This document shows, piece by piece, positions 13,204 through 31,099 of a stretch of DNA of 64,000 nucleotides. Numbering within the stretch: position 1 is the stretch's first letter; each line of letters begins with the position of its first letter. The stretch covers positions 174,684 to 238,683 of the forward strand of contig NZ_JABEKT010000005.1 of assembly GCF_013283195.1 (NCBI RefSeq), given 5' to 3'. The notes below the pieces were generated by a model, which was not told the origin of the DNA, did no database searches, and worked only from the letters and a program-made list of their open reading frames with translations. A program made the translations under genes and the position numbers. This DNA is from Ensifer adhaerens. Lineage in GTDB: Bacteria; Pseudomonadota; Alphaproteobacteria; Rhizobiales; Rhizobiaceae.

Positions 13204-13365
13204 GGTGCGATCCACACAACCGATGGATAGTTTACGATCCCGGGTGCCTACAAACGTAGGTGGGCGCCATATGTCCGGACCCACGAGCCCGGCCAGGGAC
13301 AGCTCCCTTGAGATCGAGTATGGCCCCGGGGATTGTGTGTCCTGTCGGGAAGCGCAGACCGCATC
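13204..13365 (-). ncRNA. ssrS: 6S RNA
   Basis: A 162-nt element directly downstream of zapA, where alphaproteobacterial 6S RNA usually lies. It can fold as a long rod. The closing stem pairs 13357-13365 with 13204-13212 (8 of 9 pairs). A second stem pairs CACACAA with TTGTGTG, and a perfect small hairpin CCTAC-N4-GTAGG is at 13247-13260. A GGGA/TCCC inner stem lies near the apex. On the minus strand CTATAT precedes the 5' end by about 6 bases, as a -10 box would. 6S RNA binds sigma-70 RNA polymerase by mimicking an open promoter. Ends are estimated from the fold. Confidence 0.85.
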
Positions 13366-28746: not shown

Positions 28747-30054
28747 ATGATGAGAAATAACCTGCTCCCCGTCGCCTCTCTCCTGCTGGGCACACTGTTT
28801 CTCTTCCTGGGCAACGGCCTGCAGGGCCTGCTTTTGCCGGTCAGAGGCACGGCCGAGGGCTACCCCACCACCATCCTCGGCCTGATCGGTACGTCCTGGG
28901 CGGCCGGTTTCGTGCTTGGCTGCTTCTTCGCGCCTGCTGTCGTCAAACGCATCGGCCACGTGCGTGCCTTCAGCGTCTTTTCGTCGCTGATCGCCATTGT
29001 CGCGCTGATGACCGGTATCCTGATCGACCCCACCTGGTGGCTGATCCTGCGTGCGCTCACCGGCTTTGCCACCGCCGGCACCTCGATGATCATCGAAAGC
29101 TGGCTCAACGAACGCGCCACCAATGAGAGCCGCGGCGTCATCTTTTCCCTTTACATCGCCATCACGCTCTTCGGCGTCGTCGGCGGCCAGATGATGATCC
29201 CGTTCGGTGATACCTCCACCAGCACTCTCTTCATGATCTGCGGCATTCTCTATTGCGTCGCGATGCTGCCGACCCTTTTGTCGAAGGCCGCCACGCCGCA
29301 GCCGCTGAAGCAGGTGCAGCTCGACCTGCGAGGGCTCTACCGAAACTCCCCGGTCTCCTTCCTCGGCATCCTGCTCGTCGGCATCGCCAATGGCGCCTTC
29401 GGCACGCTCGGCGCCGTCTTCGGCCGCCAGGCGGGCCTCTCCGACAGTACGGTGGCGGCGATGATGAGCGTGGCAATCTTTGCGGGCGCGGTCATGCAGT
29501 TGCCGGCCGGACGCCTCTCCGACCGCATCGACCGGCGCTACGTGCTAGCCGCCCTTGCCGGCGTCGGCGCGCTTGCGGGTCTCCTGATCTTCCTGGTGGA
29601 ACCCACCCAGGTCTGGATCGTGCTGACACTGATCGCGATCTACGGCGCCGCCGCCAATGCGCTCTACCCAATCGCCGTTTCGCATGCCAACGACTTTGCG
29701 ACCGCCGAGGATTTCGTCAAGGTTTCCGGTGGTTTGCTGCTGCTTTACGGTATCGGCACCATCATCGGGCCGACCATCGGCGGCCCGGTCATGACCGCGA
29801 CCGGCCCCTACGGGCTGTTCATGATCACCGCCTGCGCCCACATCCTCATCACCGCCTATGCCATCATCCGCAGCCGCATGCGCGCGCCGGTGCCCGTCGC
29901 CGAGCGTGATGCCTTCTCGCCGATCAATACCGGCACGGCTGTGACGCCCGAGAGCCTGCAGCTGTCGCCACGCGCAGCGCCGTTTGATGAAACCCACGGC
30001 GACGATGGCGATATCGACCCCGAACAGGAGGAGAAGTCGAATGGGCCTGTTTGA
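28747..30054 (+). CDS. MFS transporter (YcaD-like, 12 TM)
   Basis: A 435-residue major facilitator with about 12 helices. Seen: the first helix with FLFLGNGLQGLLLPVRGTAEGYPTT (in part LGNGLQGLLLPVRG), TSWAAGFVLGCFFAPAVVKRIGHVRAF (the motif A equivalent), and in the second half GRLSDRIDRRYVLA. This resembles the YcaD/UMF1-type subfamily in which LNERA near residue 120 is conserved (SWLNERATNESRG). Substrate unknown. The hydrophilic C-terminal tail (about 385-435) is acidic. Its end overlaps the DUF1192 gene by 14 bp. Confidence 0.88.
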   Translation: MMRNNLLPVASLLLGTLFLFLGNGLQGLLLPVRGTAEGYPTTILGLIGTSWAAGFVLGCFFAPAVVKRIGHVRAFSVFSSLIAIVALMTGILIDPTWWLILRALTGFATAGTSMIIESWLNERATNESRGVIFSLYIAITLFGVVGGQMMIPFGDTSTSTLFMICGILYCVAMLPTLLSKAATPQPLKQVQLDLRGLYRNSPVSFLGILLVGIANGAFGTLGAVFGRQAGLSDSTVAAMMSVAIFAGAVMQLPAGRLSDRIDRRYVLAALAGVGALAGLLIFLVEPTQVWIVLTLIAIYGAAANALYPIAVSHANDFATAEDFVKVSGGLLLLYGIGTIIGPTIGGPVMTATGPYGLFMITACAHILITAYAIIRSRMRAPVPVAERDAFSPINTGTAVTPESLQLSPRAAPFDETHGDDGDIDPEQEEKSNGPV

Positions 30055-30229
30055 CGAAGACCTACCGAAAAAGAAACTGGCGCACGAGATCGGCAGCGAC
30101 CTGTCACTTTTGTCGGTCGACGAACTCACGCAACGCATCGCGCTGCTGAACGAGGAAATTGCCCGGCTCGAGGCCGAGCGCGAGCGCAAATCCGCAAGCC
30201 GATCAGCGGCCGAAGGCCTGTTTCGCTAA
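30041..30229 (+). CDS. DUF1192 small coiled-coil protein
   Basis: A 62-residue protein, MGLFDEDLPKKK followed by a helix SVDELTQRIALLNEEIARLEAE, which is the DUF1192 pattern. Function unknown. Strong AGGAGG 8 bases before the ATG lies inside the end of the MFS gene; the genes overlap by 14 bp in different frames. It is conserved beside rcdA-type genes in rhizobia by my recollection, not by search. Confidence 0.85.
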   Translation: MGLFDEDLPKKKLAHEIGSDLSLLSVDELTQRIALLNEEIARLEAERERKSASRSAAEGLFR

Positions 30230-30267
30230 CGGCCGCGCAAGGACAATTGGCCCGAAACGGCGCTCTT

Positions 30268-30282
30268 TTAACGGTATATTAA
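30268..30282 (+). promoter_or_regulatory. CtrA box upstream of candidate sRNA
   Basis: TTAACGGTATATTAA is an exact TTAA-N7-TTAA, the full consensus for the cell-cycle regulator CtrA. It sits about 25 bases before the estimated start of the candidate sRNA, where a CtrA activator site would overlap the -35 region. Confidence 0.7.
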
Positions 30283-30291
30283 GCATTCTCT

Positions 30292-30406
30292 GCGATTGTC
30301 TGATCATCCGGAGCTTTCCGGACTCAGACAATTTCTCCGACTGGCGAATGGGTCTGATTTTTCTCCCTGTTTTACCTTGAGAGCCGCTTTCCGCGGCTCT
30401 TTTTTT
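30292..30406 (+). ncRNA. Candidate CtrA-controlled small RNA
   Basis: A roughly 115-nt stretch without an open frame has both a regulated start and a strong end. Its 5' part folds as ATTGTCTGA (30295-30303) with TCAGACAAT (30324-30332), with an inner TCCGGA-GCTT-TCCGGA stem. The middle is single-stranded with two CTCC motifs (30335-30338 and 30363-30366), the kind of anti-Shine-Dalgarno patch used by rhizobial sRNAs. The 3' end is the terminator at 30380-30406. A CtrA box lies just upstream. I cannot assign it to a known family; it could alternatively be the 3' UTR of the upstream operon. Confidence 0.5.
30380..30406 (+). terminator. Intrinsic terminator before rcdA
   Basis: AGAGCCGC (30380-30387) pairs with GCGGCTCT (30393-30400), loop TTTCC, followed by seven T (30400-30406). 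A strong terminator for the MFS-DUF1192 transcript and/or the candidate sRNA. Confidence 0.9.
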
Positions 30407-30441
30407 GTTTTGTCATAGGTCGCTGCAAAGAATTGTGGAGA

Positions 30442-30456
30442 TTAACCCTTTCTTAA
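30442..30456 (+). promoter_or_regulatory. CtrA box upstream of rcdA
   Basis: TTAACCCTTTCTTAA is a second exact TTAA-N7-TTAA, 125 bp before the rcdA start codon. In Caulobacter, CtrA activates rcdA, whose product helps degrade CtrA; the same feedback is suggested here. Confidence 0.75.
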
Positions 30457-30580
30457 GAATGCTCTTGCGCGAAATGCGCTATGGCATCATTCTTCAGGCA
30501 TAGAGGCCGGCAAGGAAACTTTTCCCAAAGCCGCCCGTTACCCGACTGTCGTGATGCGTTTGAACCAGGGAAAACAGGTC

Positions 30581-31099
30581 ATGTCCGAAAGAGGATTGAA
30601 TACCGTCAGTTTCGCGGGGCACGCGGCGGCGTCGGCGCAGTTCAAGGCGCTCTATTCGGAAGGCATGGGTCTGGTCGAAGAAACCGCGAGCTATCTCGAC
30701 GGTCCCGGTCGCCTGGCATCCAAGGTCTTGCCGCGCATGGCATCGGTCCTCTATGCAGCAGAATCCATGCGCCTCACCACCCGCCTGATGCAGATGGCAT
30801 CGTGGCTCCTGCTTCAGCGCGCCGTCAACAATGGCGAGATGAGCCGTGACCAGGTGCTTTCGGAAAAGAGCAAGGTTCGCCTCGACAGCTTCAACGTCGA
30901 CCGCAGCGCGCCCGGCTGGAGCGAGCTTCCGGAATCGTTCCGTGATCTCATCGAGCGCTCTCTGCGCCTGCAGAACCGCGTCGCCCTGCTCGACCGCGAG
31001 ATCTACCGCCCGCAGGAAGCCTCGACCTTCGTTCCGGACAACCAGAACGGCGTCAAGGCGCAGATCAAGCTGCTCCAGACGGCCTTCGGCACCAATTGA
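30581..31099 (+). CDS. rcdA: RcdA (DUF1465), ClpXP adaptor for CtrA degradation
   Basis: A 172-residue DUF1465 protein, the family of Caulobacter RcdA, which forms a helical bundle and with CpdR and PopA delivers CtrA to ClpXP at the pole. Recognisable: FKALYSEGMGLVEETASYLDG, then the long helix around AESMRLTTRLMQMASWLLLQRAV, and LIERSLRLQNRVALLDREIY near the C-terminus. The tail TAFGTN is probably flexible. ATG 30581 with AAAACAGG upstream fits better than the earlier in-frame ATG at 30554. Two CtrA boxes lie upstream. It ends before a strong terminator, so it is a single-gene transcript. Confidence 0.9.
   Translation: MSERGLNTVSFAGHAAASAQFKALYSEGMGLVEETASYLDGPGRLASKVLPRMASVLYAAESMRLTTRLMQMASWLLLQRAVNNGEMSRDQVLSEKSKVRLDSFNVDRSAPGWSELPESFRDLIERSLRLQNRVALLDREIYRPQEASTFVPDNQNGVKAQIKLLQTAFGTN

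Follow-up and report, generated by a model that had tools for sequence, protein, structure and literature searches.

The intergenic DNA ahead of rcdA in the window, as we call the whole 64-kb stretch of Ensifer DNA analysed here, raises the question of whether a short folded RNA encoded beneath a CtrA box is a gene in its own right, which RNA it is, and whether CtrA controls it. A sequence-only reading of this DNA had claimed an exact CtrA box at 30268-30282, followed by a structured non-coding stretch and a perfect terminator with seven T. All three were confirmed (z -4.9 for 30293-30409; 9-pair stem), and we observed a second exact box at 30442-30456, which that reading does not mention. These are the only two exact copies of TTAA-N7-TTAA in the 64-kb window; shuffled versions of the window (n = 100) contained 0.01 exact boxes on average, and none contained two. 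The features of the locus, together with the more distant 6S RNA, are as follows.

13205-13363, minus strand: 6S RNA (83.5 bits)
30041..30229, plus strand: DUF1192 gene, upstream (E 1.6e-23)
30268..30282, plus strand: CtrA box TTAACGGTATATTAA of the sRNA promoter, -38 to -24 from the probable 5' end; predicted site
30294..30299, plus strand: candidate -10 element GATTGT, proposed by inspection
30306..30406, plus strand: sRNA, SmelC671/Sm84 ortholog, 101 nt, probable 5' end A30306 (model R1)
30307..30322, plus strand: stem-loop 1 (SL1), 6 bp (fold; compensatory changes)
30324..30357, plus strand: stem-loop 2 (SL2), TCAGAC/GTCTGA (fold; pairs kept in relatives)
30363..30370, plus strand: single-stranded CUCCCUGU, likely mRNA-pairing seed (invariance; PMC3927594)
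30379..30406, plus strand: stem-loop 3 and U-tract, intrinsic terminator (terminator call, fold, covariation)
30442..30456, plus strand: second exact CtrA box (the rcdA-proximal box), 174 bp downstream of the first, past the terminator and ahead of rcdA; predicted site
30581..31099, plus strand: rcdA (DUF1465; E 6.9e-59)

The terminator is composed of a 9-pair stem at 30379-30401 leading into T7 at 30400-30406, and the DUF1192 gene ends 38 nt before the CtrA box on the same strand. RcdA of the window is 100% identical to the proteins of Ensifer oleiphilus and Sinorhizobium sp. A49, and 99% identical to that of E. adhaerens SD006. GATTGT, the -10 candidate in the window's genus, is weak; by inspection, the equivalent place in many relatives reads TATTAC or TATTAA. 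A coding reading of the element, based on a 10-codon frame (MGLIFLPVLP), was rejected, as indels break the frame in relatives.

Family membership and the S. meliloti ortholog

The Rfam model RF02356 (BjrC1505) matched 30261-30406 over its full length; searched against 601 bases, the match has an E of 0.0011, and its 29.6 bits do not reach the model's gathering cut-off of 50 bits. L088, from S. meliloti, was also missed at this cut-off, and genome searches with this model gave no match in G000. A covariance model built from 22 sequences of the type found in other families, with both the promoter and the window excluded (R1), matched 30304-30406 with 42.5 bits (E 8.5e-07 over 59 sources: the window plus 58 loci, among which neither L001-L021 nor the 80 named loci, L061-L140, were counted and from which some near-duplicates had been removed). 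Across the whole genome, R1 gave a single match at E<=0.001 (E 2.5e-5), the next best having an E of 0.17. The R1 match places the element in the BjrC1505 family by common descent, despite its missing Rfam's curated cut-off. When the search was extended to related genomes, a DNA search matched 31 of 61, the window's own counted, and in G048 and G051 its match overlaps the RF02356 match at the loci homologous to the window's. R1 detected the RNA in 244 of 297 genomes of the window's order, again with its own counted, and a model that includes the window (R2) detected it in 156 of 199 genomes of the window's family. Class-wide, 39 of 385 genomes matched RF02356 and 37 of 385 matched R1, including a few genomes of the order to which the window belongs; RF02356 had no match in 14 control genomes, presumably including Caulobacter vibrioides.

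The window element carries the traits of the family: an unpaired CUCCCUGU flanked by hairpins, a terminator at the 3' end, and microsynteny with DUF1192 and rcdA. It resembles BjrC1505 in the full-length match, in CUCCCUGU and in the terminator, but the SL2 register differs and the Rfam model starts about 45 nt before the probable 5' end. These first ~45 positions of RF02356 align to window 30261-30305, which is promoter and CtrA box, not probable transcript, and the model thus seems to include promoter sequence. BjrC1505 itself has reportedly been seen on Northern blots and is said to be less abundant in nodules. Two genomes of one genus carry the sRNA in tandem, the copies lying about 200 nt from each other (L163:1301-1382 and 1501-1582; L164:46-128 and 246-327).

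The sequence-only reading had seen here a possible new feedback element. The sRNA itself is not new: it is the Ensifer ortholog of SmelC671/Sm84, a diverged member of the RF02356 family that was previously detected in S. meliloti and is functionally uncharacterised. Valverde et al. (2008, PMC2573895) located sm84 between SMc03988 and SMc03989, all on the plus strand, with a predicted sigma-70 promoter and an expected size of about 110 nt, and reported a Northern band of about 80 nt and microarray signals in six stress conditions. Judging from gene order, SMc03988 and SMc03989 would correspond to the DUF1192 gene and rcdA. RNA-seq gave the same RNA as SmelC671 (2986421-2986520, plus strand, 100 nt), catalogued as a trans-sRNA, and placed the 6S RNA on the minus strand (SmelC667, 2972090-2972252; Schluter et al. 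2010, PMC2873474); the 6S RNA and the sRNA have the same order and orientation, and similar spacing, in the window and in S. meliloti. In the RFM_SmelC671 family, a single-stranded CUCCCUGU between hairpins and a 3' terminator were described, with relatives in Rhizobiaceae, Brucellaceae, Phyllobacteriaceae, Bradyrhizobiaceae and Methylobacteriaceae, including R. etli ReC71 (Reinkensmeier et al. 2011, PMC3927594). SmelC671/Sm84, RFM_SmelC671 and ReC71 are like the window element in locus, orientation, distance to the 6S RNA and length of 100 nt, and the SmelC671 family shares with it the CUCCCUGU between hairpins and the terminator (PMC2873474, PMC3927594).

The L088 locus of S. meliloti 4H41 measures exactly 100 nt between the A of ATCCGG and the last base of the T-run (1226-1325), as does SmelC671, from which we infer that the 5' end in the window lies at A30306. 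The Sm84 Northern band at ~80 nt, rather than 100, makes processing likely. The published accounts examined give SmelC671/Sm84 a sigma-70 prediction and describe no CtrA promoter for it, whereas the window has a predicted CtrA box. No link of CtrA to SmelC671 or BjrC1505 was found in the literature examined, which was mostly open-access main text; a 2020 review gives no promoter motif for SmelC671, the promoter entry of its Table 1 being empty, and reports expression in nodule zone II (PMC7143759, section 19). EcpR1 (SmelC291), which the sequence-only reading had offered for comparison, and GspR (SmelC775) are S. meliloti sRNAs acting on cell-cycle mRNAs, but they lie at divK-pleD/rpmG and at SMc03844/SMc03845, respectively, and their loci and loop motifs are unlike those of the window sRNA (PMC4414408, PMC5928217). 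By these literature positions, both were ruled out as its identity.

The RNA fold and its support

Folded from A30306, the RNA forms SL1, SL2, an open stretch with CUCCCUGU and the terminator at -37.6 kcal/mol (z -4.1; none of 200 shuffles did as well), a structure that accounts for 46% of the ensemble. Folding of 30293-30409 yields -43.7 kcal/mol (z -4.9) and a 10-pair outer stem closed over a 6-pair inner stem. The sequence-only reading had described a 5' hairpin of 9 bp plus 6 bp; the hairpin and its inner six pairs are present, while the outer part has ten pairs, not nine. This outer stem requires 30294-30303, which is 5' of the probable RNA start and covers the candidate -10. Of its 10 pairs, 15 of 16 close relatives retain at least 9. 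Among 79 of the 80 named loci (one could not be parsed, here and for SL2), L061-L090 (n = 30, mostly Ensifer and Sinorhizobium) keep 8.1 pairs on average, and the other 49 (L091-L140) keep 5.6 of 10, against 5.3 for random arms. Overlapping the candidate -10 and at the level of random arms in these 49 loci, the outer hairpin is not supported as a feature of the RNA. SL2, in contrast to it, keeps 6 of 6 pairs in 76 of the 79 loci, in a register that differs between the Rhizobiaceae type and the type of other families.

Covariation in relatives, proposed as a check in the sequence-only reading, was found. In A3, an alignment of 22 sequences of the other type made without structure, 10 pairs are double-changed, in 17 cells, against 3.0 and 3.6 in shuffled alignments. 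Among 17 Rhizobiaceae-type sequences (A2), the pairs hold in 95.1% of cells, with 10 double-changed cells against 4.2 shuffled; double changes affect 3 A2 pairs, which does not exceed the 2.2 of shuffled alignments. For 61 model-aligned matches, 21 of 21 pairs are double-changed, in 118 cells, against 9.8 and 21.3 shuffled, this alignment being fitted to the structure model.

All 17 rows of A2 have CUCCCUGU unchanged, and one of its bases varies in A1 and A3. Two unpaired CTCC motifs had been noted earlier. CUCC is indeed present at 30335-30338 and 30363-30366, but only the second is unpaired and invariant in the 17 Rhizobiaceae-type sequences, the first lying outside the unpaired invariant stretch. 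The CcrM site GACTC is likewise present at 30321-30325 but is not fixed, GANTC occurring there in 7 of 16 close relatives and in 61 of 80 wider loci. Taken together, these comparisons support a fold composed of SL1, SL2, single-stranded CUCCCUGU and the terminator.

The CtrA box and the probable independence of the gene

The position of the box was followed in locus sets selected in different ways. Loci found by the RcdA protein alone, of which we used the best 80 of 553, are assigned by title to Ensifer, Sinorhizobium, Rhizobium, Pararhizobium and Shinella, among others, and part of the genomes are shared with L001-L016. In this best 80 of 553, the sRNA core lies 215-324 nt before rcdA in every locus, and the sRNA box is exact in 52, matches at least 7 of 8 bases in 72, and 6 of 8 in 8. 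A box of at least 7/8 occurred in 0 of 4500 same-width windows of other upstream DNA, mostly coding, and in 33 of 4000 shuffled intergenic stretches. The order set consists of 80 places picked by the promoter-free R1, all from the stronger, listed matches among the 244 of 297 genomes; one locus was cut by a contig end, leaving 79, and three of its genomes (G123, G243 and G299) correspond to L058, L054 and L060, of which L058 had trained R1. Here a box 36-43 nt before the match is exact in 34 of 79, matches 7/8 in 41 and only 6/8 in 4; at least 7/8 is thus reached in 75 of 79, compared with 24 of 6472 control windows. A further order set had a box of at least 7/8 in 33 of 33 loci, 22 of which trained R1 (without promoters), and its members L031-L060 were selected with RF02356, a model that itself includes the box. 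Outside the order, 27 matches picked by RF02356 had at least 7/8 in 19 and 5 or 6 in 8 over the range tested, the tandem copies of L163 and L164 counting twice. A frequent variant in many families, TTTAC-N6-TTAA, is one mismatch from the consensus.

The consensus TTAA-N7-TTAA is conserved in the sRNA promoter at a near-fixed distance. That it is usually carried across genomes suggests that CtrA controls the sRNA. Activating CtrA sites usually overlap the -35 region; the box at -38 to -24 does so, and CtrA most likely activates the sRNA gene. The CtrA-driven sRNA beside rcdA that the sequence-only reading had put forward as a candidate is supported as a separate gene with its own conserved CtrA-box promoter. 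We consider it probable that this member of the SmelC671/BjrC1505 family is an independent gene for a trans-acting sRNA, transcribed from a CtrA-dependent promoter.

It is rather unlikely that the sRNA is real but its box mainly a plain sigma-70 -35 region, or the site of another AT-binding regulator, with CtrA not the controller. Conservation running beyond the box (TTAAGCTTTC in many loci), the overlap of the second half-site with the expected -35 place, and the sigma-70 promoter predicted for sm84 by Valverde et al. (PMC2573895) would fit such a promoter, but the first half-site is kept too, at the exact 7-nt spacing and even outside the order, and a -35 element does not need TTAA-N7-TTAA. 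We find it very unlikely that CtrA drives rcdA from this promoter and that the RNA is an aborted product, a 5' leader or attenuator of rcdA. The strong and conserved terminator argues against such a leader, as does the exact box that rcdA has of its own in 80 of 80 rcdA-selected loci (the best 80 of 553), although, with the other sRNA type, no more than 10 of 30 loci have an rcdA-proximal box of 7/8 or better. Its appeal lies in the arrangement of the locus, where rcdA follows the RNA at no more than 600 nt and on the same strand in 77 of 79 order loci (30 of 30 RF02356 loci also have rcdA), and in agrobacterial rcdA, which has several start sites in all three lineages and a possible CtrA site (PMC10469942, section 10); one of these start sites could be that of the sRNA. 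Outside the order, however, 12 of 27 loci (L141-L169 less L148 and L158) have the RNA but no rcdA match within the available stretch, some of these stretches being short and divergence beyond tblastn being possible in some, and some of the loci lie beside Cys/Met-metabolism enzymes. L026, from the window's own family, also has the RNA and box with no rcdA match.

The RNA without an rcdA match in these 12 of 27 loci favours an independent gene over an rcdA leader. INDEPENDENCE FROM rcdA, the RNA with its box is, on comparative grounds, most likely a gene of its own, and this status counts against both the rcdA leader and a 3' UTR. The latter, read-through from the preceding DUF1192 operon, had been kept as an alternative in the sequence-only reading and is extremely improbable: the DUF1192 gene does end on the same strand 38 nt before the box, but the RNA has a promoter box of its own at a near-fixed position, occurs with no nearby DUF1192 match in several lineages, and is catalogued as a 100-nt trans-sRNA in S. 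meliloti (PMC2873474). As to the downstream neighbours outside the order, the next long gene is a Cys/Met-metabolism enzyme in L145 and L149 and a 3-hydroxyisobutyrate dehydrogenase-like gene in L153; in L145, L149 and, by inspection, L159, the sRNA lies upstream of a Cys/Met-metabolism PLP enzyme gene, not of rcdA.

For the favoured reading of an independent CtrA-dependent sRNA gene, we propose that phosphorylated CtrA would bind TTAA-N7-TTAA at -38 to -24 and activate transcription from about A30306, and that RNA polymerase would halt at the 30379-30406 terminator. The resulting ~100-nt RNA would fold into SL1, SL2 and the terminator, leaving CUCCCUGU exposed. This stretch resembles seeds that pair with Shine-Dalgarno sequences, and it would most likely pair with Shine-Dalgarno-like regions of mRNAs, so that less protein would be made from these mRNAs while CtrA is high. 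The parts of this scheme that we infer are the binding of CtrA and activation by it, the timing in the cell cycle and the function of the seed. In S. meliloti, the rcdA promoter region has a CtrA ChIP-seq signal, while rcdA is unchanged on CtrA depletion (PMC4433202). An sRNA promoter in that region would fit the signal; the rcdA-proximal box could equally be its source.

Candidate targets and possible place in the CtrA regulon

No target conserved across families was found in the rcdA, ctrA and sciP start regions or in a genome scan. The start regions of ctrA and rcdA bear on the feedback element that the sequence-only reading had suggested for an sRNA beside rcdA. The duplex of the sRNA with the ctrA start region has -14.6 kcal/mol, with 38% of shuffles as good, and pairing with the sciP start region is no better than shuffles. 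CcnA of Caulobacter is like the window sRNA in its predicted CtrA site and C-rich pairing loop (PMC8959179), but it has another locus and no homology was detected; CcnA raises CtrA, acting on ctrA and gcrA (PMC8959179), whereas ctrA pairing of the window sRNA does not exceed shuffles.

The rcdA start region of the window forms a duplex of -15.7 kcal/mol with the sRNA, with 2% of shuffles as good, and among the named loci the rcdA duplex falls under 5% of shuffles in 33 of 80 (median 5.8%). CAGGGA, a 6-base complement of the seed, precedes the rcdA start in 70 of 80 rcdA-selected loci (the best 80 of 553), in the window within 30560-30580. In a 76-locus test, in which many distant rcdA start codons are uncertain, CAGGGA was present in 18: 16 of 16 loci of the window's genus and 2 of 60 elsewhere (L020 and L058). 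With 2 of 60 beyond the genus, rcdA was rejected as a family-wide target. CAGGGA before rcdA may simply be the ribosome site, or it may mark a lineage-limited sRNA target, and complementarity makes rcdA a possible target within Rhizobiaceae. The genome scan for the 10-mer complement AACAGGGAGA gave 9 places, the sRNA gene itself among them. Another of the 9 is at the ribosome site of a 402-codon gene (L239:1500), where the seed complement is perfect over 11 bases; this gene was rejected as a conserved target, the match being kept in 3 of 13 genomes, with the window's own counted.

The Rfam model RF02356, as these results show, misses Rhizobiaceae members of the family. With the predicted CtrA box, SmelC671 would have a specific promoter, in keeping with its being expressed in the invasion zone of nodules, and the sRNA promoter is a possible explanation for a CtrA signal at rcdA with no effect on rcdA. 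Tentatively, and with somewhat less than even confidence, we suggest that the family is the dedicated sRNA of the CtrA regulon, activated by CtrA, retained throughout Hyphomicrobiales and still to be recognised in other orders of Alphaproteobacteria. It may add a post-transcriptional repressive arm to CtrA via CUCCCUGU, fill the place of CcnA in rhizobia, and perhaps damp rcdA translation in Rhizobiaceae. If this is true, some or all of the CtrA signal reported for the rcdA promoter would come from the sRNA promoter.
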